Assembly (NCBI GenBank): GCA_017535315.1
Contig: JAFXUD010000012.1
Coordinates: forward strand, 1-64,000
DNA from: Victivallales bacterium
GTDB lineage: Bacteria > Verrucomicrobiota > Lentisphaeria > Oligosphaerales > Oligosphaeraceae
Length of the DNA: 64,000 bases
Reading direction: 5' to 3'
The first letter of the stretch is position 1, and every line of letters starts with the position of its first letter. Both the position numbers and the translations under genes were made by a program. Below are positions 17,353-64,000 of the stretch, in pieces. The notes under the pieces are model-generated. The model saw only the letters and a program-made list of their open reading frames with translations. It did not search any database and had not been told where the DNA came from.

Positions 17353-19116
17353 ATGAAACTAGATCCGACCCAGATGGCTGATTGGCAGATAGCTGAAGCA
17401 GCCGAAGCCTCGATGAAACCTGTTTCCGTCCTCGCTGAGGAGTTTGGTCTTCTTCCAGAGGAGGTTATTCCGTGGGGGCGTCAGCTTGCCAAGGTTGACC
17501 AGGCCATGATTCGTGAGCGACTGAAGGAGAGGCCTCAGGGCAAGTATATTGATGTTACGGCCATCACTCCTACGCCACTTGGCGAGGGCAAGACGACTAC
17601 GACGATGGGTCTCATTGAGGGTCTTGGTCGTATTGGCAAGAGCGTTACGGGAGCCATTCGCCAGCCTAGTGGGGGGCCTACCTTCAACATCAAGGGTTCT
17701 GCCGCTGGTGGCGGTCTTGCGCAGTGCATTCCACTGGCTCCGTTTTCCATGGGGTTGACTGGTGACATCGACCGCATTACCAACGCTCATAACCTTGCCA
17801 TGGTCGCTTTGACTTCCCGTATGCAGCATGAGCGAAATTATGACGATGCTACGCTTGCTAAACGTCATCTTACCAGGTTGGACATTGATCCCAGCCGTGT
17901 TCAGTTCAAGTGGGTCATGGATTTTTGTGCCCAGGCTCTTCGTAACATCACCATTGGCAAAGGTGGCAAGATGGATGGCTATGAAATGGAGTCTGGTTTT
18001 GCCATTTCTGTTTCCAGTGAACTGATGGCCATTTTGGCTGTTGCCGACAGTCTTGCTGATATACGTTCACGCATTGGTCGCATGATTCTTGCCTATTCTC
18101 GCAGTGGTTCTCCTATTACCACTGAAGATTTGGGGGTTGCGGGTGCCATGACTGCCTGGATGGTCGAGGCTTTGAATCCAACCCTTGCCCAGACGCTTGA
18201 AGGCCAGCCTATTCTTGTCCATGCAGGACCTTTTGCCAATATTGCCATTGGCCAAAGTTCTGTCATTGCCGACAAGATTGGCACTCGTCTTCGTGACTAC
18301 CATGTTACGGAAAGTGGTTTTGGTGCAGATATCGGCTATGAGAAGTTCTGGAATCTCAAATGCAGGTACTCTGGTTTGACGCCTAATGCAGTTGTTATTG
18401 TCGCCACTATTCGTGCTCTCAAGATGCATGGCGGCGGTCCTGCCGTTAAGCCTGGAATTCCTCTCGACGATGCCTATACTCATGAGAATCTTCCTCTTCT
18501 AGAAAAGGGTTGTGAGAATCTTCTTGCACACATAGAAACTGTCAAGAAGAGTGGTGTTCGTCCTGTTGTCTGCATCAACGGTTTTTATACAGATACACCT
18601 GCAGAGGTTTCTCTTGTACGCCGTATTGCCGAAGAAGCAGGGGCCTTTGCCGCCAGTAGTCAACATTGGCTTAAGGGCGGAGAAGGGGCCATTGAGCTTG
18701 CCGAGGCAGTTGTCGCCGCTGCTGAAGAGAAAAACGATTTTCATTATCTTTATAGCAATGAGATGCCTATTCGTACTCGCATTGAGTCCATTGCAAAAGA
18801 AGTTTATGGTGCTGACGGGGTTGATTATCAGCCCGCGGCTCTTGAAAAGCTAGAATTATTTGAATCAAATCCCGAGAGTTCTAAGCTAGGTGTTTGCATG
18901 GTAAAGACTCATTTGAGTCTTTCCCATAACCCAGACATCAAGGGACGTCCTCGTGGTTGGAGACTGCCTGTTCGTGATCTTCTTCTTTATAATGGCGCTG
19001 GTTTTGTCGTTCCTGTTGCTGGGGATATTAAATTGATGCCTGGCACTGCTTCTGATCCTGCCTTTAGGCGTATTGATGTAGATGTCAAGACTGGCAAGAT
19101 TCATGGACTTTTCTGA
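17353..19116 (+). CDS. fhs: Formate-tetrahydrofolate ligase
   Basis: A 587-residue ATP-dependent ligase making 10-formyl-tetrahydrofolate, used in one-carbon metabolism and in the methyl branch of acetogenesis. [15 protein letters not shown] (72-86) is the ATP-binding loop of the family, and [19 protein letters not shown] and the [13 protein letters not shown] segment are canonical. The C-terminus DIKLMPGT is also family-typical. Length is slightly above the usual 555-560. GGAG lies upstream. No other Wood-Ljungdahl genes are in the window. Confidence 0.95.
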
Positions 19117-19124
19117 TTCAGTTT

Positions 19125-19877
19125 ATGTCCCTCGGTGTTCAAAAACTTGTTTTTAATCTCTCTAGCAGGCATTATCGTAAGAAGGAGGGATTGTATCTAG
19201 TTGAAGGTCTTCGATGCTGTTCAGAGGCCATTTTTAAGGCCTCTGATCGCATCCTGTATTATATATGTTCTGAATCTTTTCGTTCCTCTGTTCATTTTAT
19301 TGATATTCCCTCCTTGACCCCTATTGTTCTTTCAGATTCAACTTTTGGGAACCTTTCTGAGACTAAAACTCCTCAAGGTATCATTCTTGTCCTTAAAGCC
19401 CCTGTTTTATCTCCTGCATCCTCTCTTTCTTCCCCTTTTACTCTCATTTTGGATTGTGTTTCAGACCCTGGCAATCTTGGTACCATTCTACGTACTGCCT
19501 GGGCGGTTGGCCTTGATTCTGTTTGGCTTGTGAAGGGTTCTGCCGATCCTTTTTCTCCTAAATCCATCCGCAGTGGCATGGGAGCTCAGTTTTCCGTTGG
19601 TCTTCATCTTTTTGATTCTCTTGAAGATGCCGTTTCCCATGCTCGTTTATTCGGTACTTCCGAAGTCTGGTGTACTTTGCCCGATAAGGGTATTTCCATC
19701 TATGATGATGATTTTGTTCTTACTGGTTCCACCCTTATAATCGGTAATGAAGCCAATGGTATTTCCCTTCCTGATATTGGTCGTGCGGTTACTATCCCCA
19801 TGCCTGGACACTCCGAGTCCCTTAATGCCGCCCAGGCTGCTACGGTCTTTCTAATCGATTCTCTACGTCCTCGCTGA
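19125..19877 (+). CDS. SpoU/TrmH-family RNA 2'-O-methyltransferase
   Basis: A 250-residue SPOUT methylase with an N-terminal substrate-binding region (EGLYLVEGLRCCSEA) and the three SPOUT motifs: DCVSDPGNLGTILRTA, IGNEANGIS and IPMPGHSESLNAAQAATVFL. It methylates a ribose 2'-OH in rRNA or tRNA with S-adenosylmethionine; the exact site cannot be told. The start lies 8 bases after fhs, probably the same transcript. Third codon positions are very T-rich. A terminator follows at once. Confidence 0.88.
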   Translation: MSLGVQKLVFNLSSRHYRKKEGLYLVEGLRCCSEAIFKASDRILYYICSESFRSSVHFIDIPSLTPIVLSDSTFGNLSETKTPQGIILVLKAPVLSPASSLSSPFTLILDCVSDPGNLGTILRTAWAVGLDSVWLVKGSADPFSPKSIRSGMGAQFSVGLHLFDSLEDAVSHARLFGTSEVWCTLPDKGISIYDDDFVLTGSTLIIGNEANGISLPDIGRAVTIPMPGHSESLNAAQAATVFLIDSLRPR

Positions 19878-19899
19878 TTTGCGCATCTTTTTGGTTTTT

Positions 19900-19932
19900 A
19901 GGCACTTACGAAACTGTCGTAGGTGCCTTTTT
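19900..19932 (+). terminator. Intrinsic terminator after the methylase gene
   Basis: A 12-bp stem with one G-T pair (19900-19911 with 19917-19928) and a T-rich tail marks the end of the nadC-fhs-methylase run and separates it from the tubulin-like cassette. Confidence 0.85.
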
Positions 19933-19959
19933 CTTTCCTCAAAACCGAGAATCCAATAT

Positions 19960-20020
19960 AATAGTATATTATATTTTACTTTAGTATAGTAAACTAAATT
20001 ACACTAAAGTATAATTATAT
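19960..20020. other. AT-rich block with inverted repeats, candidate centromere/operator
   Basis: About 60 nearly pure A/T bases carry TACTTTAGT (19977-19985) mirrored by ACTAAAGTA (20003-20011), with additional TAGTA and ACTAAA half-motifs between. It lies upstream of the promoter of the winged-helix/tubulin-like operon. Repeated AT-rich sites in this place are what TubR-type proteins bind as centromere and operator in type III plasmid partition. The role is inference; the repeats are seen directly. Confidence 0.45.
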
Positions 20021-20096
20021 AAAAACAGGGTGTTGAATGGGGTAGAAAGTGGGGTGTAAATAATTGAGATAGTGCAAGAAAAAGCGTGCAAAGGGC

Positions 20097-20124
20097 TTGA
20101 AAAAAGGGAGAATTATAGTACAAT
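20097..20124 (+). promoter_or_regulatory. Promoter of the wHTH-tubulin-like-kinase operon
   Basis: TTGAAA (20097-20102) and TACAAT (20119-20124) with a 16-base spacer, 43 bases upstream of the first start codon and about 80 bases downstream of the inverted repeats. Confidence 0.55.
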
Positions 20125-20167
20125 ATAGATATAAGATTAATGGTGAAAGAAAAAAGGGTAAAAAGAG

Positions 20168-20524
20168 ATGCCTCAAGTAACGGAAGAGGAACTGGGTAAA
20201 TTATTCAGTGAGCAGGTTGAGCGTCTTCAGGAAGGTCACTTTCTGGTGCTCTACTGGGCGGCATTAGGTGAAGGGAAGAAGGTAAAATACAACATCACGA
20301 ATCTGTTTGACGATTTAAAGGCTGTAGGGATAACGCGGACGAAGCAGACAGTGGTTGGGATAGTCCAGGGTCTAGAAAGTCTTTGTTTTGTAGATTTGCG
20401 TGAAGAGCGGAACAGGAAGAACATCTACATCACGAGGTTTGGGGCCAAGGCGCTTGAAATGATGGTAAAGCAAAAAAGATATACAAGTAGGAAATCAGCA
20501 TTTCTGGAGGCACAGGAAAAATGA
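20168..20524 (+). CDS. Small winged-helix DNA-binding protein, TubR-like position
   Basis: A 118-residue protein. Residues about 20-100 fit a winged helix: helices around HFLVLYWAALGEGKK and NITNLFDDLKAVG, a recognition helix around TRTKQTVVGIVQGLESL, then a beta wing (CFVDLREERNRKNIYITRFG). The C-terminus is basic. It overlaps the tubulin-like gene by ATGA, so the two are co-translated. In plasmid type III partition a small winged-helix protein (TubR) binds repeated sites upstream, represses the operon and links DNA to TubZ. The gene order and the repeat block match that plan; sequence homology to TubR is not established here. Alternative: an ordinary autoregulator. Confidence 0.7.
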   Translation: MPQVTEEELGKLFSEQVERLQEGHFLVLYWAALGEGKKVKYNITNLFDDLKAVGITRTKQTVVGIVQGLESLCFVDLREERNRKNIYITRFGAKALEMMVKQKRYTSRKSAFLEAQEK

Positions 20525-21624
20525 CGATAGGCATAGGTGGTGCAGGGTCGAAGATTGCGGCGAAACTGGACAAGAACGCGGTCCTGATAAACGTCTCGGA
20601 AGTGGAGATGAACAAAGTCCAGGGTGGGGGAAGGCGCATACTGGCGCGCGTCACATCGGAGCATGGCCAGTTCAAAGGGTCGATGAAAAGCCGTCAGATA
20701 GGGAATGACGCCTATTTGGCGATGAGCCGCGAACTGTTGGAAATGATTCGGGGAAACAGTGTATTCTGTTCGACGGGGGGAGGAACGGGAAACGGCATAG
20801 TGTCAGGAATCATGACAGACCTATCAAAGATGGACAATGTGCCGATAGCAGAAAAGACCTTCTTCGGGATAGTTCTGCCCTACGCAAAACTGGAGACGAA
20901 TGAGTTTGTGACCAACACGACGGAGTTTCTGACGGGGCCTCTGACGGAGGCGATTGACAGCGGAAACACGGGAAACATTGTCCTATTCAGCAACAAGCGG
21001 AAATTCGAAGAGGAGATTGGAGAGGACGAGTACAACACGATGCTGGTGGAATCATTGAGGGAGTTCCTGAAGATACCTGAAAAGAATGAGAAGAACAAGC
21101 TGCTGGACGGGCATATCGACCAAGAGGATTTCTCGTTGTTCTTGTCAAAGAGCTACTTCAATCATTTCACTTTTTTCGATTATGACCCGAAGGAGCCGTT
21201 TGAGAAGCAGCTGGAGGCGAACTACAACGATTTGTTACTGCCGCCTGAATCGCCAATTGAGGCGATGTTCCTGGTGGAGGTACCGAAAGGCGGGGATGCA
21301 ACGGCTTTCTATAAAATAATCAACTATTTTGACAGCATACAGGTATCGCCAGTCTATAGCGTCATAGAGAACCCAGAGCTACAAAAGATTAGGGTGACGG
21401 TTGCCCTGCTCTATTCTCGCAAGCCGATGGAGCTTGTAGATGACTTTAACAAGATTAGCGAGGACCATGTCCATGCCAAGGTACAGAAATCAGTGGAGCA
21501 GTATGTGAAACTAAACACACTGAAGGTTAATTTGGAGGACGAAGCAAAGAAGGTAGCAAGGTCAAGGGGAGATGTGGATGAGGATAACATCCTTGAAACC
21601 TTAAGAAGGCTTGGAAAACTATAG
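20521..21624 (+). CDS. Divergent FtsZ/TubZ-like tubulin-superfamily GTPase
   Basis: A 367-residue protein beginning directly with the nucleotide-binding strand-loop IGIGGAGSKIA (3-13), like FtsZ. The tubulin signature is STGGGTGNG (84-92). GHIDQEDF (197-204) supplies paired acids Asp200 and Asp203 where the T7 loop activates GTP hydrolysis on the neighbouring subunit. A helix with Asn/Asp (about 127-158) fits the T5-H7 region. The second domain is about 245-300. A charged tail (338-367) follows, without the FtsZ C-terminal peptide. It lacks the division-gene context of FtsZ and is shorter than most TubZ. Predicted to polymerise with GTP. The partner winged-helix gene overlaps upstream and a kinase lies downstream. 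Confidence 0.8.
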   Translation: MTIGIGGAGSKIAAKLDKNAVLINVSEVEMNKVQGGGRRILARVTSEHGQFKGSMKSRQIGNDAYLAMSRELLEMIRGNSVFCSTGGGTGNGIVSGIMTDLSKMDNVPIAEKTFFGIVLPYAKLETNEFVTNTTEFLTGPLTEAIDSGNTGNIVLFSNKRKFEEEIGEDEYNTMLVESLREFLKIPEKNEKNKLLDGHIDQEDFSLFLSKSYFNHFTFFDYDPKEPFEKQLEANYNDLLLPPESPIEAMFLVEVPKGGDATAFYKIINYFDSIQVSPVYSVIENPELQKIRVTVALLYSRKPMELVDDFNKISEDHVHAKVQKSVEQYVKLNTLKVNLEDEAKKVARSRGDVDEDNILETLRRLGKL

Positions 21625-21702
21625 AGATAAAGCAGGAGGGATTTAGAAGAAAAGGGAAGGGAAATAAAGAGGGGTGTAGAAAAAGAAGAATCTAGTGAAA
21701 AT

Positions 21703-22980
21703 ATGGAAGAGACAGAAATAATATCCAGTGGAAAGAATAAATCGGACAGCCAGTCCAAAGGGGCCGCCCGTGTTCAGAATCTGGACGAAACACAGACTTT
21801 ATCGCAAGCAAAAGAGGTCAGGAAAAGGCAAGAAGAGGCCGCTGATAAATCTTTGGAGGCCAGCATAAAAGGAGAAGAAGGCAACGCCGTAAGGAAAGAG
21901 AATGATACGCAAAATGAAAAAGATGACAATCAAGTGAGGTCAAGAGAAACGACGGTCAAAGAGCAGGAGACAAAAGGATCTTCAAAGACAGTCGTGTCAA
22001 CTGAACGGCGATATCTCAACTCGAATGGAAAACCAGGCTCAAGGCCAGTCAACCATCAGCAGATTAAGAGAGAAGCGGAGACAGGAGAATACAGGATATT
22101 GAATGAAGTGGCCAAGGGAGCGGAGAGCGTGCTGTACGCGGCTATAGTGGGAAATCACCAGGTATGCGTGAAGGCGATAAGGAACAAGCTGAATCGTATC
22201 ATCGGAGCATCGACGACACGGAAGCAGGAAGAGAAGTTGAACAACGTTCCTTACCATACAAAACTACGCCATATCCAGAATGAATACAAGGTATCACAAC
22301 AGTTGTTTTCCGACAAGGAGATACCCGTTGTGCATATCTATGCGCTCAGAAAGGTAACGTTCTGGGGAATCGAGCTAGGATACGATCTGATCATGGAGAT
22401 GTTCAACGGACATGATCTTGGTGAGAAGCAGACAGGGAAAACGCTCAAGAAAGATGACAAGATACGGGCCGTCTATCAATGTCTCCAGGCATTGGACTAC
22501 CTTCACAAAAGGCACTACATTCATCTGGACATAAAGCCGTCAAATTTTATCCTGCACGATGGCAGGGTAAAGCTATTGGATTTCGGCGTATCTGTTCAGA
22601 ACGGATACAAGCCAAAGGCGATTACGGGCACAGGCGGGTATCTGTCGCCTGAGCAGGTATGCAAGGAAGCGTTGGATGAAAAAACGGACATATTTGCGTT
22701 AGGGCTTACCTTTGCCGTGCTGTTTGGAGGAAAAGCTCTGCAACAGCCGCAGAACGACCTGCTTTCAAAGCAGTTCAGGCTGGACGCGAAATATCATTTA
22801 GACCATGATGAAATATCGGTGATTACGGAGTTGCCAGAGCTGTCGGATATGCCAGAGTTTGCGCAGATTATCAAGGACTGCTCGATACCGAGGCGAGACA
22901 AGCGTCCAGCAAGCTGCCAGGTTTTGATGGCGAGAATCAAAGCCTGGGCAGCTGAGAAAGGCTTCAAGCTGGAGGTTTGA
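21703..22980 (+). CDS. Ser/Thr protein kinase with long charged N-terminal tail
   Basis: A 425-residue soluble kinase. Residues 1-125 are low-complexity, rich in Glu, Lys, Gln and Ser, and predicted disordered. The Hanks-type domain spans about 130-422: Lys157 (VCVKAIR), helix-C Glu194 candidate (QNEYKV), HLDIKPSN (274-281) with Asp276 and Lys278, DFG at 293-295, SPE at 315-317 (the APE equivalent) and DIFALGL at 329-335. All catalytic residues are present, so it should be active. No transmembrane helix or PASTA repeats are seen. It starts 78 bases after the tubulin-like gene in the same direction, so that GTPase or the winged-helix protein are natural candidate substrates. lpxB follows 36 bases later. 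Confidence 0.88.
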   Translation: MEETEIISSGKNKSDSQSKGAARVQNLDETQTLSQAKEVRKRQEEAADKSLEASIKGEEGNAVRKENDTQNEKDDNQVRSRETTVKEQETKGSSKTVVSTERRYLNSNGKPGSRPVNHQQIKREAETGEYRILNEVAKGAESVLYAAIVGNHQVCVKAIRNKLNRIIGASTTRKQEEKLNNVPYHTKLRHIQNEYKVSQQLFSDKEIPVVHIYALRKVTFWGIELGYDLIMEMFNGHDLGEKQTGKTLKKDDKIRAVYQCLQALDYLHKRHYIHLDIKPSNFILHDGRVKLLDFGVSVQNGYKPKAITGTGGYLSPEQVCKEALDEKTDIFALGLTFAVLFGGKALQQPQNDLLSKQFRLDAKYHLDHDEISVITELPELSDMPEFAQIIKDCSIPRRDKRPASCQVLMARIKAWAAEKGFKLEV

Positions 22981-30711: not shown

Positions 30712-30914
30712 GTAACTATTCAGAAGAGAGCATCTTGGCATAATCCGCTTTTTTTGCGCCATGCCGCAAATGCGCCATGCCGCAAATGCGGCATGGCGCA
30801 AACGAAACTGGAGATATCGCTTACCCGTGGGTTTCGCTCGCGTCATAAGGCGCTCGCTCTACCCACGTCTATATTCTTGCCGCCGCTACGCGGCTTACCC
30901 TTCTGATTAGTTAC
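30712..30914. mobile_element. Structured MITE-like repeat, family A copy 1
   Basis: A 203-bp element bounded by inverted repeats GTAACTATTCAGAAG and CTTCTGATTAGTTAC (14 of 15 match). Immediately outside both ends is AACTATTT (30704-30711 and 30915-30922), a candidate 8-bp target duplication, although AACTATT also occurs inside the inverted repeat. Inside are a 13-bp stem (30772-30784 with 30787-30799), a second hairpin (CGTGGGT 30826-30832 with ACCCACG 30861-30867) and a small GCCGC/GCGGC stem. It has no reading frame. A second copy is at 45727-45922. Its right edge touches the stop codon of the minus-strand gene at 30917. Confidence 0.8.
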
Positions 30915-30916
30915 AA

Positions 30917-33046
30917 CTATTTATTATTTTGTTTGACGATGGATTTGACTTCGATGAGGGGTAGTGTCCAGTTTTCGGGTTTATGCTTTTTACCGTGAAT
31001 GGTCACATAAGCGTGATTCCACTGGTTCAGGTTGATTCTGCGGCTGCCCAGAAAGCAAAGTGGACGCTTTCCCCCTGCAAAACTATCATACAAGACATGG
31101 GTTGCATGGGTTGTCGGGGTTCCCAGAGGCTCAATATAACCTGTGAGAGTCGGATTTGCCTCTGCCCAAGCCTTTGCCTTTGCTTCTGCCTCCGCCTTTG
31201 CCTTTGCTTCTGCCTCCGCCTTTGCCTTTGCTTCTGCCTCCGCCTTTGCTTTTGCTTCTGCCTCAGCTTTAGCCTTTTCTTCAGCGGCTTTAGCTTCTGC
31301 TTCCGCCTTAGCTTTTTCTTCAGCGGCCTTCGCCTCAGCCTCAGCCTTTGCCTTTTCTTCAGCGGCCTTCGCCTCAGCCTCAGCCTTTGCCTTTTCTTCA
31401 GCGGCCTTCGCCTCAGCCTCTGCCTTTGCCTTCGCTTCCGCCTCCGCCTTTGCCTTCGCTTCCGCCTCCGCCTTTGCCTTCGCTTCCGCCTCCGCCTCCG
31501 CCTTTGCCTTCGCTTCCGCCTCCGCCTTTGCCTTCGCTTCCGCCTCCGCCTTTGCCTTCGCTTCCGCCTCCGCCTTTGCCTTCGCTTCCGCCTCCGCCTC
31601 CGCCTTTGCCTTCGCCTCCGCTTCCGCCTTTGCCTTCGCCTCTGCTTCCGCCTTTGCCTTTTCTTCAGCGGCTTTGGCTATGGCGGCGGCCTTGATTTCT
31701 GCTTCCGCAATTTCTCTGGCGGCCTTTGCTTCCGCGGCGGCTTTTTCCTGTGCTACTTTTGCTTCCGCGGCGGCTTTTATTTCCGCCTCAGCCTTTTCCC
31801 TAGCGGCCTTTGCTTCTGCCAGAGCCTTTTCCTGTGCTGCTTTCGCCTCAGCGGCAGCCTTTATTTCCGCTTCTGCTTTTTCCCTGGCGGCTTTAGCCTC
31901 CGCCAGAGCCTTTTCCTGTGCTGCTTTCGCCTCTGCAGCGGCCTTTATTTCCGCCTCTGCTTTTTCCCTGGCGGCTTTAGCCTCCGCCTCCGCTTTTTCC
32001 TGTGCGGTTTTCACTTCGGCTGCGGCTTTTTCCTGAGCCTCACGTGCTGCAGTGGCGGCCTTGATCTCGTCTTCTGCTTTTTCCTTTGCAACTTTTGCCT
32101 CAGCCGCCGTAGCCTCCGCCTTTTCTTGTGCAGCCTTTGCCTCAGCCGCCGTAGCCTCTGCCTTTTCCTGTGCGGCCTTTGCCTCAGTTTCGGCTTTTTC
32201 CTGAGCTTCTTTGACAGCGGCAGCGCGGGTTTCTATGGACTGCTTCATTGCTTCCAGTTTCTTTTCGGCCTCCTCAGCAGCTTTTGCGGCAGCGGCGATT
32301 TTGGCATTGTTTTCCTCTATCTGCTTTTCGTAATCAAGTCGTTTCTGCTGGCTTTCGGCAGCCTGTTTTGCTGCCTCCTCTGTTTTTTGCTTTTCTTCCA
32401 GAAGACGCTTTTCCTGAGCAACTCTTTGTTCGTAGGCCTCTTTTTCGGCCCTTGCTTTTTCTTCCGCTTCCGCCTTTTCCTGCGCGGCTTTGGCAAGTGC
32501 CGCCTGGGTGATGGTTGCGGCCTTTTCCTGTTCTGCTTTTTCTGCTGCGACTTTGTCGGCTACCTCTTCAGAAGGCTGTTGCTGTTTTGCAGGTGGAGTG
32601 TCCATCGTGACATAGCTGCTGTTGACCCAGGCAGTTGCATCTTCTGGCACATAGACCTGTTTCCATTTTTTGGTGGCAGTTTCAATGACACTCAGTTTAG
32701 TGCCTCTTTTCACCCGCGAAAACGAGGTGAAGACGACAGAAGGGCCGCTGTAGAAGGGGCAGGAATCCATCACGACCATTCCCTCCTCGTCCAGGGCCTC
32801 GCTGACAACCCATGCCTTGATATGTGAGGGCAACTTCACCTCAAGCCATTCACCCTGGCTGCCTACCGCCGTGAACTTGTCTCCTTTGGTGAAAGTGCCC
32901 AGCGTCTCGAAATGGACGCCTGGTTTGGCGCGGATGGTCAACTTGTCGGCCGTGACGGTTCCAGTTCGTGGCCATTGTTCCTCCTGTGCTTGAAGAAACG
33001 TTGCAGTCAAAAGGGCGATCAAAAGAAAAAAACTAAAAGGGCGCAT
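30917..33046 (-). CDS. Secreted SH3-domain protein with long Ala/Glu/Lys helical repeat
   Basis: A 709-residue protein with a signal peptide (MRPFSFFLLIALLTATFLQAQ). Two SH3b-like domains lie at about 27-85 (TADKLTIRAKPGVHFETLG) and 90-150. Residues about 160-610 are an extremely Ala/Glu/Lys-rich helix or coiled coil resembling TolA domain II. Its centre is a tandem array of an 8-residue KAKAEAEA unit encoded by a 24-nt DNA repeat. The C-terminal 80 residues are globular and mixed. A periplasm-spanning or cell-wall-binding role is plausible; no catalytic motif is seen. Repeat number may vary between strains. The stop codon lies within the edge of a repeat element. Confidence 0.75.
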   Translation of the reverse strand: MRPFSFFLLIALLTATFLQAQEEQWPRTGTVTADKLTIRAKPGVHFETLGTFTKGDKFTAVGSQGEWLEVKLPSHIKAWVVSEALDEEGMVVMDSCPFYSGPSVVFTSFSRVKRGTKLSVIETATKKWKQVYVPEDATAWVNSSYVTMDTPPAKQQQPSEEVADKVAAEKAEQEKAATITQAALAKAAQEKAEAEEKARAEKEAYEQRVAQEKRLLEEKQKTEEAAKQAAESQQKRLDYEKQIEENNAKIAAAAKAAEEAEKKLEAMKQSIETRAAAVKEAQEKAETEAKAAQEKAEATAAEAKAAQEKAEATAAEAKVAKEKAEDEIKAATAAREAQEKAAAEVKTAQEKAEAEAKAAREKAEAEIKAAAEAKAAQEKALAEAKAAREKAEAEIKAAAEAKAAQEKALAEAKAAREKAEAEIKAAAEAKVAQEKAAAEAKAAREIAEAEIKAAAIAKAAEEKAKAEAEAKAKAEAEAKAKAEAEAEAKAKAEAEAKAKAEAEAKAKAEAEAKAKAEAEAEAKAKAEAEAKAKAEAEAKAKAEAEAKAAEEKAKAEAEAKAAEEKAKAEAEAKAAEEKAKAEAEAKAAEEKAKAEAEAKAKAEAEAKAKAEAEAKAKAEAEAKAKAWAEANPTLTGYIEPLGTPTTHATHVLYDSFAGGKRPLCFLGSRRINLNQWNHAYVTIHGKKHKPENWTLPLIEVKSIVKQNNK

Positions 33047-33113
33047 TTGAGGCCTCCTAAGAAATTAGCAATTAGAAATTAGAAATCAATAATTTTAAAT
33101 AGCTAATAGCTAA

Positions 33114-56977: not shown

Positions 56978-58001
56978 TTATGCACTTCCAGTTTGCTTTT
57001 TACAAGCAAACTCAATGATAAGCACGATAGAATATGAAAGCAACAGAGTAACGAATACAACTAGAACAGGCCTTAAATACAAAAATACACTACTATTGTT
57101 AGCAAGATGGAGGAAACGATATGCATGGTTGATTATAAAAATAACAAAAACATGTATTATATACACATACATTGATAGTTTTGCACCTATATATGATAAA
57201 GGATGATTCAAACTACTAAAGCTATTCCTCATGCAAAGAATAAAAATCAAAACAACCTGTGGAAATGTTGATATGTTTACGCCAAAATCCCTACCCAATA
57301 AATAGCGTTCTCCAAGGCACGCCACAGTAAATACAGCAACTAGTGACCACAGAATCCTATTCGTTAACCATTTATTTACCATTGATTCATTGCGACGCAA
57401 CCAGTTACCAAGCATGAAGAAAGAGAAACCTAAAATAAGGAAATTTCTGTAGTAAATAACAGGGACAGATACTCCACATAGATACATTCCTTGAGCCAAT
57501 ACAATATATATTACGAAAAACACAGGAATCAAACCAAAAGCTATATTATATAAACTAAAATGTACAATCTGCATATAGGATATAGTCATACAAAAGAGCA
57601 AACAAAAACCACAGATGAAGAGCAAATATAATTGTTTCATTGAAAAGAAGTAACTTTAATACCCCCATCAATGAACATGCTTCTAAAATTGAGGATACAG
57701 AACAATGATTCTTAACGACAGCAACCAAAAGGTAAAACAAGGAAGCAAAGAATGTAATTTTGCCAATATGCTTTATTTTTCTCTTCGCATCAAACTTACC
57801 GCTGCTGTATGAAAAATATCCAGAAACCATAAAGAAAAACGGCACACTGAACCGAGAAACAGCATTTACCGACGTTCCAAGATATCCTGGAAATTTGCAG
57901 TGTATGAACACCACAAATATACACGCAACACCTTTAATAAAATCAATACTATAATTATGCTGCTTGTGCGTAGTAGGTATGTTTATAACACTTTCCAACA
58001 T
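56978..58001 (-). pseudogene. Acyltransferase-3 membrane protein broken by one frameshift
   Basis: Two overlapping frames (57555-58001 and 56978-57640) together match the intact paralogue at 62020-63081 along its length (IDFIKGVACIFVVFIHC, VSRFSVPFFFMVSGYF, FFMLGNWLRRNES, LLGRDFGVN). At about 57569 a single extra base turns LYA-IV into LYADCTF-stop; removing it joins the frames exactly where the paralogue reads LYAIVVRL. There is no homopolymer at the site. It is a recent null mutation, programmed shift or sequence error. The intact form would O-acylate a surface sugar in the membrane. Confidence 0.8.
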
Positions 58002-58326
58002 ATTCTGTTTAACTTAATGTCTTTTTTAAGAATGGAATATATTATCTTCAAGCCGAGACAACTCAGCCATCATGTTTTTGTCGCTTCTCCGACGACTGCA
58101 CTAATAATTACCTATCCTTGTATGTTATGTATTCAGCGGAAGCATCGCTCCCGCTGTTTCTTTTTCTAATATTCAAGAACAATCAGAGGTGACGGCTTGA
58201 TTTTAACACATTACCTCATGTGGAACATCGCTTTATGCTATTATTCTAATTTCATTTGAATCATCCGTGATTTTCAAAAAATCTTTAATCATTTCAGCAT
58301 ATCCTCTTTTTATTTTACAATTTGCT
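58002..58326. other. AT-rich intergenic region without a supported gene
   Basis: Between the frameshifted acyltransferase and the first ATP-grasp gene I see no supported frame. A weak hairpin (CAGCGG/CCGCTG near 58135-58160) is followed on the plus strand by a T-rich run, and could terminate a plus-strand transcript, but no plus-strand gene feeds it. Probably degenerate sequence. Confidence 0.4.
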
Positions 58327-59466
58327 TTATTCTTGCCACCAGAAATCTTTTTTCAACCTCCAACCAATCAGTTCCTCAAATTCGGCCTGATCACCTTTGT
58401 CCTCATATAATTGCCACATATAAGCCCCATTTGGATTGCCTTCCATCACACACCAGCCATCAGGTGTTAGAACAATATCCCAACCGACAAATCGAATAGA
58501 ATCCAACTTCTTTGCTAACTCCGTAACAAAAGCAATCGCCTCATCCCATCGCGGAATTTGAAACCCAAGAATTCTCTCGCCTGTATCTGGATGCACTTCA
58601 GCGAACTCGCGATTTTCAGTTGCACCTGGAGTGTAAACAACTCCTGTTTCTGAATCAATGCCAGCATCATACGTATTATACGTTGCACTAGTAATAAACT
58701 GCCCGCCACGTCCAATCTTGAACCATGGTTTATAGGCATACACTTTATCGTTGACTCGTACCGTTGTTATACGAATACCATTTACCGATGCCGGATGGAA
58801 TTTTGCTATTGATGCATCCTGATTGATCAATTCTTCAAGGACTAAAGCAGAATCATGGTATCCAATAAATGTATGTGTATATTCAATCCCCTTATCCAAA
58901 AGTTTTTTGAAAAACCCTCTTAGCGACGAATCGTCCAGAGATTCCACTTTAGTTGCAAAAACGCCATGCCCCTGCATCAGACTACGCGGCTTTACAACAA
59001 ATGCTTGATGCTTATGTACAAAGTCACAAAAGACTGGATAATCCGCTTCCTCTTTGATACATATAACGTCTCTCCTATACGCGTCTTTGAATAGTTCATA
59101 AGCGCAATACTTATCATTAAGGAGATAAAAGTCTTTCGGATCATTCAGATAATCTCTATAAAATTTCTTTTTGTGAATTGTAACATAGTTATTGGCTTGT
59201 TCATGGGTCTTATGTAATAAGTCCCACATGAAGAATTCTTCAGTCGAACACCCATAGGCAAAATAATAGTAAACAGACAGCCAGAGCATTTTTTCAACGG
59301 TCTCTTTATCTTTTACTGTCAACTTATCTGCAACTGCATCACGGATTGAATTAAGAAATAAATCCGTATATTTCTCAGGGTTATCCTTTGCCACTGCTTT
59401 AGCAACGATGATTTTATCATTTTCAGATTCAGCAAGAGTAAAACTTGACATGTTAAGTTTGATCAT
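58327..59466 (-). CDS. Sugar-transfer-associated ATP-grasp protein
   Basis: A 379-residue protein. An N-terminal helical region (1-110) is followed by ATP-grasp features: FVVKPRSLMQGHGVFA (ATP-binding lysine), ALVLEELINQDASIAKFHP, KIGRGGQFITSAT and GWDIVLTPDGWCVMEGNPNG with the metal-binding Glu and Asn. It resembles the ATP-grasp family found in capsule and polysaccharide loci, thought to ligate an acid to an amine on a sugar. AGGAGG lies upstream. It is paralogous to the next gene. Confidence 0.78.
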   Translation of the reverse strand: MIKLNMSSFTLAESENDKIIVAKAVAKDNPEKYTDLFLNSIRDAVADKLTVKDKETVEKMLWLSVYYYFAYGCSTEEFFMWDLLHKTHEQANNYVTIHKKKFYRDYLNDPKDFYLLNDKYCAYELFKDAYRRDVICIKEEADYPVFCDFVHKHQAFVVKPRSLMQGHGVFATKVESLDDSSLRGFFKKLLDKGIEYTHTFIGYHDSALVLEELINQDASIAKFHPASVNGIRITTVRVNDKVYAYKPWFKIGRGGQFITSATYNTYDAGIDSETGVVYTPGATENREFAEVHPDTGERILGFQIPRWDEAIAFVTELAKKLDSIRFVGWDIVLTPDGWCVMEGNPNGAYMWQLYEDKGDQAEFEELIGWRLKKDFWWQE

Positions 59467-59532
59467 TGTAACATCCTCCTAAAAATTTATTTTTGTCAAT
59501 TATTGTTTGAAACTTAGATGCTTCCCTATTTT

Positions 59533-60669
59533 TCAATTCTCCCACCAGAAACCATCCGGCAGTTTCCATTGAATCAGTTGCTCAAACTCATCTTTCATAG
59601 GTTCTTCCCAGATAAACTGATGTACAAACTCAGCTTTATCGTTCGCTTCCATGACACACCAGCCTTTTTTACTGAGAACTATATCCCATCCAATGTAACG
59701 TAACGTTGGCAATTGAAGTGCCATCTCCTTTACCATAGTTACCAACCCTTCCCACTGGGGGATTTGGAAGCCGATAAATTGAACACCAGAATCTGGGTGT
59801 TTCTCAAAATCTTCTCCGTTTTCAGTCCTTCCATGGGTATTAATTCTTCCTGTTTCAACATCTATACCTGCACAAGGACTACCGACAAAAGCTGCCGTTA
59901 CGAAATTATCTCCACGACCTGTTTTGATCCACGGACGCCAAATATTGACTTTATCTCCGACAAGAACCGATGTAATACGCAGCGCATTGACAGACCCTGG
60001 GTGGAACTGAGCCAATAAGGGATCTTCATCAATGAGTTCTTCAAGTACTACGGAGTTATCTATACTCTCCTTATACTTCTTTTCATTCTGCATACCTTCA
60101 TACAAAAGATCCTCAAAGAAAAGCCTAATCTGTTCTTCTGAGAAATCCTTTACAGAGGCATAATGGACGCCTCGGGCTCTCCCAAGGTTTTTCGGTTTGA
60201 CCACAAACTCCTGATGTGCTTCAACAAATTGCTTGAAAATTGGATAATCATCCTCGTTATAAATGCAGATTACATCGCGCTTATAATACAGAGGCAACTT
60301 CTTATAGGTTTCGTATTTATCATTCAGAATGTAAAGGTCATCCTTGCTATCCAGGTGCTTAACATACATTAGTTTTTCTCTGGTAGTGATATACTTTCGG
60401 ATTTCTTGATCTGACTTCTCGGCGAAAGAGTAATAAAAGAATTCATCCGTGATGGCGCCATTTGCCCAATAGCAATAAATAGAATGATAGAACAGATCTT
60501 CTAGTGCATTGGAATCAGTATTACCACTTTTCTTTTCTAAGGAATCATATATTTCATGTCGAACTTTGTCAGAATAAAAGTCAGGATTGTTCCGAACAAT
60601 CTCTCTTCCCAGTTTAATACGTTCAGAGACGTTATCGCTTCTATAAAAGCCATCTAAATTCATTTTCAT
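59533..60669 (-). CDS. Sugar-transfer-associated ATP-grasp protein, paralogue
   Basis: A 378-residue protein aligned end to end with the downstream gene: LNDKYETYK, RRDVICI-like KRDVICIYNEDDYPIF, FVVKPKNLGRARGVHYA, SVVLEELIDEDPLLAQFHPGS, KTGRGDNFVTAAF and GWDIVLSKKGWCVMEAND. The final metal loop differs (MEANDKA against MEGNPNG), so activity or substrate may have diverged. Tandem duplication within an AT-rich surface-glycan locus is the likely origin. Confidence 0.78.
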   Translation of the reverse strand: MKMNLDGFYRSDNVSERIKLGREIVRNNPDFYSDKVRHEIYDSLEKKSGNTDSNALEDLFYHSIYCYWANGAITDEFFYYSFAEKSDQEIRKYITTREKLMYVKHLDSKDDLYILNDKYETYKKLPLYYKRDVICIYNEDDYPIFKQFVEAHQEFVVKPKNLGRARGVHYASVKDFSEEQIRLFFEDLLYEGMQNEKKYKESIDNSVVLEELIDEDPLLAQFHPGSVNALRITSVLVGDKVNIWRPWIKTGRGDNFVTAAFVGSPCAGIDVETGRINTHGRTENGEDFEKHPDSGVQFIGFQIPQWEGLVTMVKEMALQLPTLRYIGWDIVLSKKGWCVMEANDKAEFVHQFIWEEPMKDEFEQLIQWKLPDGFWWEN

Positions 60670-60729
60670 GCTAAGATTATCCCCTATTCAAGATATGTTC
60701 CTGACAACGTTTTTGCGTGCAATGAAAGC

Positions 60730-61944
60730 TCACATCAAATCGCGTCTCACAAGGTCATTCCCGTCCTTGTCTAGAACCTTGAGATTCTTCACCGCAGTAT
60801 TAAACTTCTCCTGCAATCTATCGTAATCATCATCCTGCACAAAGAACCCAGCGGCTCTGTCCCCTTGACTGGTAATACCTTTAAACTGATGGCCTTTGTT
60901 TCTAACAAGGTAATACCTTGAGATGATTCCTTTTCCATGCATGTCCTCGAAGCCTTCGTACCGATCCAAGACCCCCTCGCTACAGTACAGGTAGCATGTC
61001 ATCAGATACCTGTTTTCAGCCTTCGTCATTCCAACTTCTGGATCAATGCCTTCGTGCATATCCACAATGGCCTTAATCGGATCAAAACCCGACATGATTC
61101 TTGTGATTTCGTATTTAACGAATCCACCAGTTCTGGCGCAGAACTCGAGCACATATCCGTGCTTCCCATCCGTGATCATATTGATATTGATCGGAGAATT
61201 AAACAAATGGAAAGCATCCGATATTTTTTGAGTAGTCTGTTTGATTTCTTCCGTTAATTCGGTTGATAGTTCTGCTGGATAAAGACTACCGGATAAAACG
61301 AACCTGCCATTCTTCAGTTTGTTCTTGCTTCCGATACAAAGCACAGTTGCCTTGCCTTTGCATACAAAGGCCTCGACCGTTAATTCATCACCTTCAACAA
61401 ATTCTTCAACAACCGCCGTTTTTGTACGACTGATCTCAATGGCTTCGGACAGGAATTCCTCTACTTCTTCCCTGTTATTGCATTTTCTGACCCCCCTTGC
61501 GCTATATGCGTCAACGGGCTTAACAACGAGAGGATATCTCAGCCCTTCAATCTTCCCTTGATCAAAATGATTCAACACAACAAATCTGGATGTTGGGATT
61601 CCATTCTTCATAAAGACATCCTTCATATAGTGTTTATCGGACACCAGATGCACGGTCTCTAGATCAAGATATGTTTTTAACCCAAGGGCCTTGCAGACTT
61701 CAACCTCCGCTACTATGATTTGATCTGCACAGGCTGTCAGCACCATGTCAACATTTTGCTCCTTGGCAAGTTTTTTAATACCCTCAATATCCATAGCGGA
61801 CACAGGATAGAACTCATCACAGGATTTTGCTGCGACACAGTTGGGGTTCATATCTGCTAACAGAGTTCTGTATCCTCTGTTTTTTAATTCTTCTATAAGG
61901 GCAACCTGCGCAATTCCACCCGCTAATACCAACGCCTTTTTCAT
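60730..61944 (-). CDS. ATP-grasp ligase
   Basis: A 404-residue carboxylate-amine ligase-like protein. The N-terminal LVLAGGIAQVALIEELKNRG is a pre-ATP-grasp Rossmann-like domain, YPLVVKPVDAYSARGVRKC carries the ATP lysine and glycine-rich loop, VVEEFVEGDELTVEAFV the middle strand, and INMITDGKHGYVLEFCARTGG the metal Glu and Asn-equivalent. It resembles biotin-carboxylase-like amino-acid ligases. In this locus it may couple an amino acid to an amino sugar. GGGAGA lies upstream of the start. Confidence 0.82.
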   Translation of the reverse strand: MKKALVLAGGIAQVALIEELKNRGYRTLLADMNPNCVAAKSCDEFYPVSAMDIEGIKKLAKEQNVDMVLTACADQIIVAEVEVCKALGLKTYLDLETVHLVSDKHYMKDVFMKNGIPTSRFVVLNHFDQGKIEGLRYPLVVKPVDAYSARGVRKCNNREEVEEFLSEAIEISRTKTAVVEEFVEGDELTVEAFVCKGKATVLCIGSKNKLKNGRFVLSGSLYPAELSTELTEEIKQTTQKISDAFHLFNSPININMITDGKHGYVLEFCARTGGFVKYEITRIMSGFDPIKAIVDMHEGIDPEVGMTKAENRYLMTCYLYCSEGVLDRYEGFEDMHGKGIISRYYLVRNKGHQFKGITSQGDRAAGFFVQDDDYDRLQEKFNTAVKNLKVLDKDGNDLVRRDLM

Positions 61945-62019
61945 TCAATTTCTCCCATTACATCAAATATTCATCACAAAACCAAAAACCAAAAGATGAA
62001 AAACAAACGATTTCTCAAT

Positions 62020-63081
62020 TCATGGAACTGACAATGTATGCTCAGCGGTACGCTCTTTTTTCCTTCTGAAACAATCTTTGACCAAAACGACAGCGTATGA
62101 AATCAACAAAGTCAATAGCAAAACTAGAATCGGTTTAAAGTACAAAGCAAGGCAATTATCGGATATATGGAATAATCTATATGTCCTGTTCACAACTTCT
62201 TTCCATACGAACATGTGGAGAATATAAACATACATTGACAACTTGGCCCCAATATCAGTTAACAAATGCGTATCAAATTTAGTGCTATTCCTCATGCCGA
62301 GAATGAATAAAAAGATGACTTGGGGAAACGTAAAGAGGTTAACGCCAAAATCCCTCCCTAGAAAGCAGCGTTCAACAAGACACAAAATGGTCGATACAGC
62401 GACAAGAGAACACAGAATTCTATCATTAAGCAATCTACTGGCTTTCTCTTCATTTCGATGCAGCCAATTTCCTAGCATGAAAAACAAAAAACCTTCAATA
62501 AGAAAGTTCCTATAGAAATTCGGGAGTTTAATCCCACATAGATAAGCACCTTGTGCCATAATGAAATACGCTATGAACAATAGTGGAATCATCCAATAGG
62601 CAACCTTTTGTAAACGCAACCGCACAACAATTGCATAAAGAACATAGTCATACATCAGAGCATATAAAAACCATAATTGCCCAGGTATGATGATTGGCTT
62701 GTTGGACAAGAACCATATCCCCACGTCCTGCAAAGAAAATGCCAATGACGTCCCACAAACAAAATGCTTCACTATGGCAACAATTATATAAAATAAAGAG
62801 GCAAATAGCGTTATTTGTCCTATGTGTATGATTTTCCTCCAGGCACTATAAATCTTTTCCGTGTATGCAAAATACCCCGAGACCATGAAGAAAAAAGGCA
62901 CGCAGAACCGCGAAACAGCCTGAATTGCCATTCCAAGACGACCAGGAAACTCGCAATGCATGAAAACAACCAAAATACAAGCGCATCCCTTTATAAAGTC
63001 AATGCAGTAATTGTGCTTCTTTTGTGATGGAGGTTTTATATTTTCATCATTGTCTAGCTTTATTTTTTTACTGAATGACAT
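62020..63081 (-). CDS. Acyltransferase-3 family membrane protein
   Basis: A 353-residue protein with about ten membrane helices. YCIDFIKGCACILVVFMHCEF is the first helix with the family's conserved residues, SRFCVPFFFMVSGYFAY the second, and LGNWLHRNEEKASRL and GAKLSMYVYILHMFVW are further typical segments. It transfers acyl groups to exported or membrane-linked sugars. The C-terminal 20 residues are basic. It is intact, unlike the paralogue at 56978-58001, and is the most upstream gene of the AT-rich part. Confidence 0.85.
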   Translation of the reverse strand: MSFSKKIKLDNDENIKPPSQKKHNYCIDFIKGCACILVVFMHCEFPGRLGMAIQAVSRFCVPFFFMVSGYFAYTEKIYSAWRKIIHIGQITLFASLFYIIVAIVKHFVCGTSLAFSLQDVGIWFLSNKPIIIPGQLWFLYALMYDYVLYAIVVRLRLQKVAYWMIPLLFIAYFIMAQGAYLCGIKLPNFYRNFLIEGFLFFMLGNWLHRNEEKASRLLNDRILCSLVAVSTILCLVERCFLGRDFGVNLFTFPQVIFLFILGMRNSTKFDTHLLTDIGAKLSMYVYILHMFVWKEVVNRTYRLFHISDNCLALYFKPILVLLLTLLISYAVVLVKDCFRRKKERTAEHTLSVP

Positions 63082-63116
63082 GTTTATGAAGACTCAAAAA
63101 TCAGATTTCGGTTAAG

Positions 63117-64000
63117 TCATAAGAACGACATCAATTTTGCGAAATCCGCCTTGCCATCAAGTAAGGCAATGCATAGTTGAAGCAGGTCGCCGTCGCGCCC
63201 TGCATATTGCAGGAGCGATGTTATTTTGACAATAAACTCATCGCGCCCTATGGGATTCTCAGGGTCGCCTTTCGCGTAATCGACACTGCTTGAATACACG
63301 CTGCTGTCTTTGGATTCAATGGTTACAGTCGCATATCGTGCGTCTGCAGGAAGCGATGGCGGCAACGGAGCCTCCTCCACATGGACCTTTGACGTCAGCT
63401 CCAGAATGTCATCACGTTTAACGGCATCATCATTGAATGCCTCCATACCTCCTTTGCCGAGGATGAGTGCAGCGGCGACGCTGTATGGAATGCTCAACTT
63501 CGCGGATGAAGTACCTATGATTTTGGTATGGTCGTGGCCTTTTATCGCAAGCTTGTAGGTCTTCACAAGAACGCTTGAGATTTCCTCTGCGGGAATCTTT
63601 CCATACAAGGCAAGCGCCGCCTCGATCGGCGAGTGGCAATGGCGGCACGCGGCGTATGGTTTCACATAGCATCGCTCAATCTCAAATCTATCGGATGGTG
63701 CCGTCAACTTCTCCAAATCACAACTCTCCGTGAACAGATTGAAGAAGCCGCGTGGACCGCCCAACATGTCATCGGAGGCAGGCAGTCCCGTGAATCCCAT
63801 CATGGCTGACGCAAGACCGTCCATTGCCGCACGAGCAAGATTGTACGGCTTCAACAACGAGCCCTGCTCCTGCATTTCAAGAATGCCAGCAGCACTTCCA
63901 ATCGCAGAAGATACAACTGTCTTCATACGATGCGCGTCCATTTTCAGGGCAAAAGCAACAGCGACGGCGGCTGCGACGGTTCCGCATGTCCCAGCGGCGT
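63117..64000 (-). CDS. MmgE/PrpD family protein, 5' end outside the window
   Basis: The frame stays open to the window edge, so about 295 C-terminal residues are seen. Upstream of the internal Met at 63941 the frame continues AAGTCGTVAAAVAVAFAL, the family's Gly-Thr-Cys-Gly-Thr segment, showing that the true start lies beyond 64000. Other motifs are VKPYAACRHCHSPIEAALAL and KGDPENPIGRDEF. It resembles the genes at 48210 and 50795. It suggests the organic-acid gene set continues to the right of the surface-sugar locus. Confidence 0.88.
   Translation of the reverse strand, partial: AAGTCGTVAAAVAVAFALKMDAHRMKTVVSSAIGSAAGILEMQEQGSLLKPYNLARAAMDGLASAMMGFTGLPASDDMLGGPRGFFNLFTESCDLEKLTAPSDRFEIERCYVKPYAACRHCHSPIEAALALYGKIPAEEISSVLVKTYKLAIKGHDHTKIIGTSSAKLSIPYSVAAALILGKGGMEAFNDDAVKRDDILELTSKVHVEEAPLPPSLPADARYATVTIESKDSSVYSSSVDYAKGDPENPIGRDEFIVKITSLLQYAGRDGDLLQLCIALLDGKADFAKLMSFL

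Follow-up and report, generated by a model that had tools for sequence, protein, structure and literature searches.

Can a gene set with the plan of a plasmid partition system belong to the core of a bacterial chromosome, and what would it do there? This question is raised by a locus of a Victivallales bacterium, which we analysed within a stretch of 64,000 nucleotides (hereafter the window). An earlier note, made from the letters of this stretch, had described a small winged-helix (wHTH) gene, a tubulin/FtsZ-like GTPase gene and a Ser/Thr kinase gene as one cassette, and had compared the first two and their upstream repeats to TubR-TubZ-tubC systems. The described systems have tubC on the 5' side of tubR-tubZ; TubR acts as the repressor of the operon, and the TubR-tubC complex is carried along by TubZ (PMC7762940). 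Complete TubRZC modules have been described on plasmids or phages, and some Clostridia carry chromosomal TubZ and TubY without TubR, their segregation being thought to depend on ParABS (PMC7762940). We found that the TubRZC-like anatomy of the locus is strongly supported, and that a role in chromosome segregation would be its best explanation.

A TubR-like winged-helix protein precedes the GTPase

The wHTH gene (20168..20524, plus strand) encodes a protein of 118 aa and overlaps the GTPase gene by an ATGA (20521-20524); the open reading frames bear out both positions as the earlier note had read them. The tubR and tubZ genes of pBM400 show the same ATGA overlap. When the wHTH profile was compared with 177,635 PDB sequences, the top match was TubR of pBM400 (4asn; E = 0.0022, 93 columns), and a pairwise hhalign comparison with TubR gave an E value of 5e-6. 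The AlphaFold model of the wHTH has a pLDDT of 95, and TubR 4asn was its second Foldseek match (TM 0.82 by target length), amid generic MarR/ArsR folds. The motif TRTKQ (residues 56-60; 20333..20347, plus strand) is invariant, and is located where the predicted recognition helix (residues 59-71) begins, or just before it. A homologous wHTH gene was found immediately 5' of the GTPase gene at every locus inspected. The two genes abut or overlap at nearly all of these loci, with a gap of about 150 bp at one (L031).

The GTPase has a tubulin fold and coexists with FtsZ

The GTPase gene (20521..21624, plus strand) encodes a tubulin/FtsZ-superfamily protein of 367 aa, which is TubZ-like by context. 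Its T1 motif reads GIGGAG. The T4 signature STGGGTGNG (20770..20796, plus strand) and the T7-type Asp pair on which the earlier note relied are both present, the latter within DGHIDQEDF (21106..21132, plus strand). In an alignment of 40 relatives, the T4 glycines (G86-G90 and G92) and the catalytic-type Asp pair (D200, D203) are invariant. The Pfam Tubulin model matched the protein below threshold (18.4 bits, cut-off 33; E = 0.0028), and the Pfam scan gave no Tubulin_2 match. The AlphaFold model (pLDDT 88) matched FtsZ and TubZ structures in Foldseek at E ~1e-15, with TM scores of 0.6-0.75. This match settles the tubulin fold of the product of 20521-21624, as the earlier note had expected, though not its subfamily. 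In a comparison of the GTPase profile with the PDB, one FtsZ came first and RepX/TubZ second (E = 1.4e-5); the FtsZ matches end near residue 107, while the RepX/TubZ match covers residues 17-211. Even so, TubZ is not favoured over FtsZ by either fold or profile comparison.

The fold likeness to FtsZ is accompanied by clear differences. The GTPase has a long C-terminal helix and, in place of the FtsZ C-terminal peptide (DIPxFxR), ends after a low-confidence tail in LRRLGKL (21601..21621, plus strand), which is conserved in the alignment and is a candidate docking peptide. The window's genome has, at another site, a gene for a separate, divergent FtsZ with a DIPTFRRK-type C-terminal peptide, and FtsZ profile matches were found in 29/29 genera of the order. 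The GTPase is therefore not the sole FtsZ, and the idea that it replaces FtsZ in this genome was rejected. FtsZ is shortened to about 250-300 aa in several genera of the window's family (f1), where the order's FtsZ profile finds the GTPase domain and, at the end, the C-terminal peptide, but leaves model positions ~200-350 unmatched (G025:C1:2954166-2954987, G017:C83:2774-3520, G018:C354, G024:C395, G041:C82 and G042:C18).

We also compared the protein with FtsZl1 and FtsZl2, two divergent families of FtsZ-like GTPases (Makarova and Koonin 2010, PMC2875224). FtsZl1 joins an N-terminal FtsZ-like domain to a long coiled coil and a helical domain, and its T7 is unrecognisable; in some cases, Planctomycetes among them, it is linked to Ser/Thr kinases. 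Unlike these families, the GTPase of the window has T7, lacks an extended coiled coil and any large extra domain, and is found in the context of a wHTH gene and a repeat array.

A period-5 array lies upstream of the cassette

The cassette is set apart from the upstream housekeeping operon by an intrinsic terminator (19900..19935, plus strand; 12-pair stem, T tail) of a SpoU/TrmH-like methyltransferase gene. Downstream of it lies a tubC-like array of about 13 steps of 5 bp (19957..20021), each of the form A[C/G]TNN, so that the A[C/G]T recurs every half helical turn. We regard this array, which forms imperfect inverted repeats, as a candidate centromere or wHTH site. The AT-rich inverted repeats of the earlier note are real and conserved, but the name of a period-5 A[C/G]T array suits them better. 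In the window, 7/12 units are matched; shuffles give 2.4 on average and 4 at most. The best 12-unit stretch exceeded all 60 dinucleotide shuffles in 41/46 upstream regions (mean 7.2 vs 2.4 units), and no array beyond shuffles was detected in the other 5/46. The A[C/G]T period-5 array is not visible 5' of tubR in pBM400. At the array the AT skew changes from -0.25 to +0.27 (window 18000-22000); on one and the same strand, T prevails in the methyltransferase gene upstream, and A and G in the cassette.

Whole-genome scans addressed how specific the array is to this locus. A seven-unit pattern with at most 2 mismatches was matched only at 19963-20015 in the window's 4.9 Mb genome, and the reversed control gave 0 matches. 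Exact six-unit runs were found at this locus in 12 genomes of the order, the remaining matches in the order being simple tandem repeats in G023 and G025. Among 388 genomes of the phylum, 14 were positive for a six-unit run, nine of them at this locus; the five with off-locus runs carry simple repeats (G025, G216, G243, G316) or one unrelated palindromic run (G212). Judged by these scans, the array appears, simple repeats aside, to be confined essentially to this locus.

A sigma-70-like promoter, TTGAAA-16-TACAAT (20097..20124, plus strand), precedes the cassette. An array-like core, ATTATAGTACAATATA, overlaps with the -10 region of this promoter and is a candidate autoregulatory operator. A strict TTGA[CA] plus core pattern places such cores over the promoter in 7/46 relatives, compared with 0.04% of shuffles. 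Arrays of up to 11 units sit 150-400 bp 5' of the gene, separate from this promoter-proximal core. That several genomes carry a shorter, second core across the promoter is what would be expected of an autoregulating centromere-binding protein.

The kinase is confined to one family

The third gene (21703..22980, plus strand) encodes a Hanks-type Ser/Thr kinase of 425 aa, with a disordered-looking N terminus followed by a kinase domain at residues about 154-408. It was rightly called fully equipped: the match to Pfam Pkinase is full (103.5 bits), and HLDIKPSN, DFG and SPE are present. In the window's family, 24/24 loci have a same-strand kinase gene 3' of the GTPase gene; in all other families inspected, the GTPase neighbourhood has none. 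The gene trio is therefore not conserved as such. The wHTH-GTPase pair is kept at all inspected loci, but the kinase is a lineage-specific accessory and does not belong to the core of the cassette. The ancestral unit thus consisted of the wHTH and the GTPase, and the kinase is a later trait of one family.

Distribution and inheritance of the GTPase

The module is carried by a group of bacteria from the gut and the environment, the Victivallales and their relatives. The GTPase is present in 44/48 genomes and 26/29 genera of the window's order, and is single-copy there apart from open reading frames split into two matches. Profile searches also detected it in 12/106 sampled genomes of other orders of the same class and in 2/256 genomes of other classes of the phylum. 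A contig search with the single sequence proved too narrow, yielding no more than one relative at 95%. On the gene tree, 13 changes explain the family labels, which is the minimum possible, indicating mainly vertical inheritance. G127 belongs to another class, yet on the tree its copy (L122, G127:C1:1429280-1430980) branches from within the window's class; this copy is accompanied by its wHTH gene and array, again near the origin. By its sequence relationships, the whole module has apparently moved horizontally into G127.

We found no relatives among 72,556 plasmids, 50,697 phages or viral contigs, and no replication or phage genes are evident beside the cassette. The locus sits on single-contig assemblies of 5.73 Mb and 3.88 Mb. 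What had looked like a stray plasmid-type cassette is instead a vertically inherited core gene of the chromosome.

Weak profile matches (E 1e-5 to 1e-4) to reading frames of about 400-640 aa in G229, G231 and G240 (family f38) and in G403 are probably other tubulin-superfamily proteins. Elsewhere in the window, the plus strand is pyrimidine-rich at 30900-33050 (AT skew -0.54), over a minus-strand reading frame of 709 aa. Positions 57000-64000, where G+C falls to 0.36-0.41 with a negative GC skew and minus-strand reading frames of 270-400 aa, are possibly a horizontally acquired gene cluster.

The locus lies near the inferred replication origin

Origins were inferred from sampled cumulative GC skew alone, with a resolution of about 50 kb, in five genomes with complete or nearly complete assemblies, two of which (G232 and G248) belong to one genus. 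The locus was found at the skew minimum in all five, one of them weak. The minimum of G025 is at 2.05-2.14 Mb and the locus at 2.097 Mb; the corresponding values are ~1.387 Mb (at dnaA) and 1.430 Mb in G127, and, in the weak case of G093, ~1.3-1.4 Mb and 1.308 Mb. The skew switches at ~0.57-0.61 Mb in G248 and at 2.69-2.72 Mb in G232, with the locus at 0.608 Mb and 2.730 Mb. By simple arithmetic, the chance that the locus falls within 50 kb of the origin is about 2% per genome, and clear-skew proximity was observed in three unrelated families (f1, f15 and f23). Since G025, G248 and G093 have dnaA at a great distance from the locus, the locus does not merely travel with dnaA. DnaA-box clusters were absent near the locus, and the window showed no enrichment of DnaA boxes either.

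ParB is nearly absent from the class

A ParB profile search of genomes of the phylum (threshold E 1e-12) detected ParB, the usual protein of chromosome segregation, in 247/256 genomes of other classes vs 9/132 of the window's class. Only one of these nine (G168) reaches the strength of a chromosomal ParB, and the window's own genome gave no ParB match. Both genomes of other classes that have the GTPase also carry ParB; in G127, parB lies 1.3 Mb from the inferred origin. About 97 of the 132 sampled class genomes are without the GTPase, and nearly all of those are also without ParB. The module thus cannot be a class-wide substitute for ParB. Most sampled genomes of the class, in families f11, f12 and others, have neither gene. 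A simple scenario in which ParB was lost because TubRZ was gained was rejected, families f11 and f12 being essentially without either. In a scan for canonical parS, even the ParB-positive genomes of the phylum were mostly without a match. A small MerR-like gene (TubY) was not evident among the neighbours of the cassette in the window.

Discussion

The plan of TubR-TubZ-tubC systems, as known from Bacillus/Priestia plasmids such as pBM400, is upheld by the top PDB match to TubR, the ATGA overlap shared with pBM400, the conserved and locus-specific array, and the origin-proximal position. The likeness covers upstream repeats, an overlapping wHTH gene whose product has the TubR fold and profile match, and a tubulin-superfamily GTPase with T4 and T7. 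The differences are that the cassette is chromosomal, belongs to the core and lies near the inferred origin instead of on a plasmid or phage, and that it has a different array, a very divergent GTPase, no TubY in view and a family-limited kinase. The chromosomal TubZ of Clostridia is alike in being a TubZ-like protein on a chromosome, but it is found there without TubR, whereas here a wHTH gene and an array are conserved alongside the GTPase gene. ParABS likewise combines a DNA-binding protein, a cis site and an NTPase at an origin-proximal locus; its proteins are unrelated to those of the window, and canonical ParB is nearly absent from the class. We found no earlier description of such a chromosomal system in the literature searched.

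On this evidence, the cassette is probably a chromosomal TubR-TubZ-tubC-like (type III) module for partition or origin positioning. In such a module, wHTH dimers would bind the period-5 array cooperatively and build a nucleoprotein "centromere" near the origin, and the wHTH would probably repress its own promoter as well. With GTP, the GTPase may form dynamic filaments, as its fold and intact T4 and T7 suggest. These filaments could capture the wHTH-array complex, perhaps through the LRRLGKL tail, as the tail of TubZ suggests, and would then shift the two origins after their replication or set them in position. Where the kinase has been added, in the window's family, it would most likely control filament assembly or the wHTH.

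Several other readings were weighed against partition. The GTPase might be an autoregulated cytoskeletal protein that forms filaments for shape, division or membrane organisation, the wHTH being a mere operon repressor and the array its operator. The core that overlaps the promoter -10 in several genomes is consistent with this, and an added kinase suits cytoskeleton control. Links of FtsZ-like proteins to kinases have been described in Planctomycetes and Halorhabdus (PMC2875224); the frequent shortening of FtsZ in the same family may also mean altered division. However, arrays of up to 11 units placed 150-400 bp upstream exceed the needs of a simple operator, and origin proximity in several families, including that of the copy in another class, is left unexplained, so that we consider this reading unlikely. 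It is improbable that the wHTH and GTPase instead act on replication initiation, as was once proposed for RepX, with the array as part of the origin. RepX has been described as required for plasmid replication (PMC2875224), the array is AT-rich, and the locus lies at the skew minimum though dnaA is distant; but the array lies up to ~50 kb from the minima, the locus shows no enrichment of DnaA boxes, and none of the three proteins is like an initiator.

If the cassette were left over from a plasmid or phage that had integrated, its par genes surviving with no role in the host, this would agree with the mobile setting in which complete TubRZC modules have been described (PMC7762940). This origin is very improbable for a single-copy core gene of the order with a family-congruent tree and invariant catalytic residues, which has neither evident replication or phage genes beside it nor a match in the plasmid, phage and viral collections. 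Slighter still is the chance that sensor, filament and kinase form a defence cassette. The kinase domain does match the defence-library kinase models PD-T4-6 and mad6, but such matches are generic to Hanks kinases, PADLOC gave nothing beyond noise for the GTPase and wHTH, and a core gene that sits at the origin and is passed on vertically is unlike patchy defence islands. The membrane or defence roles that the earlier note had considered thus found no support.

Returning to partition, a broader proposal can be made tentatively, at somewhat less than even likelihood. The TubR-like adaptor and tubulin-family GTPase may be the main chromosomal origin-segregation machine in Victivallales and in orders related to them, taking the place of ParABS in a class that lost ParB. 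They would then form the first type III partition system of a chromosome, to which one family would have added control by a kinase. Bacterial tubulin-driven DNA segregation has so far been tied to plasmids and phages. If the proposal is true, a chromosomal, origin-linked and vertically inherited version in a class nearly devoid of ParB would mean that some bacteria may segregate their chromosomes by a tubulin relative. Such a version would also shed light on the ways in which ParABS can disappear, and on a possible kinase regulation of bacterial tubulin-like filaments. The cassette offers a concrete cis site, adaptor and motor with which this role in Victivallales can be tested.
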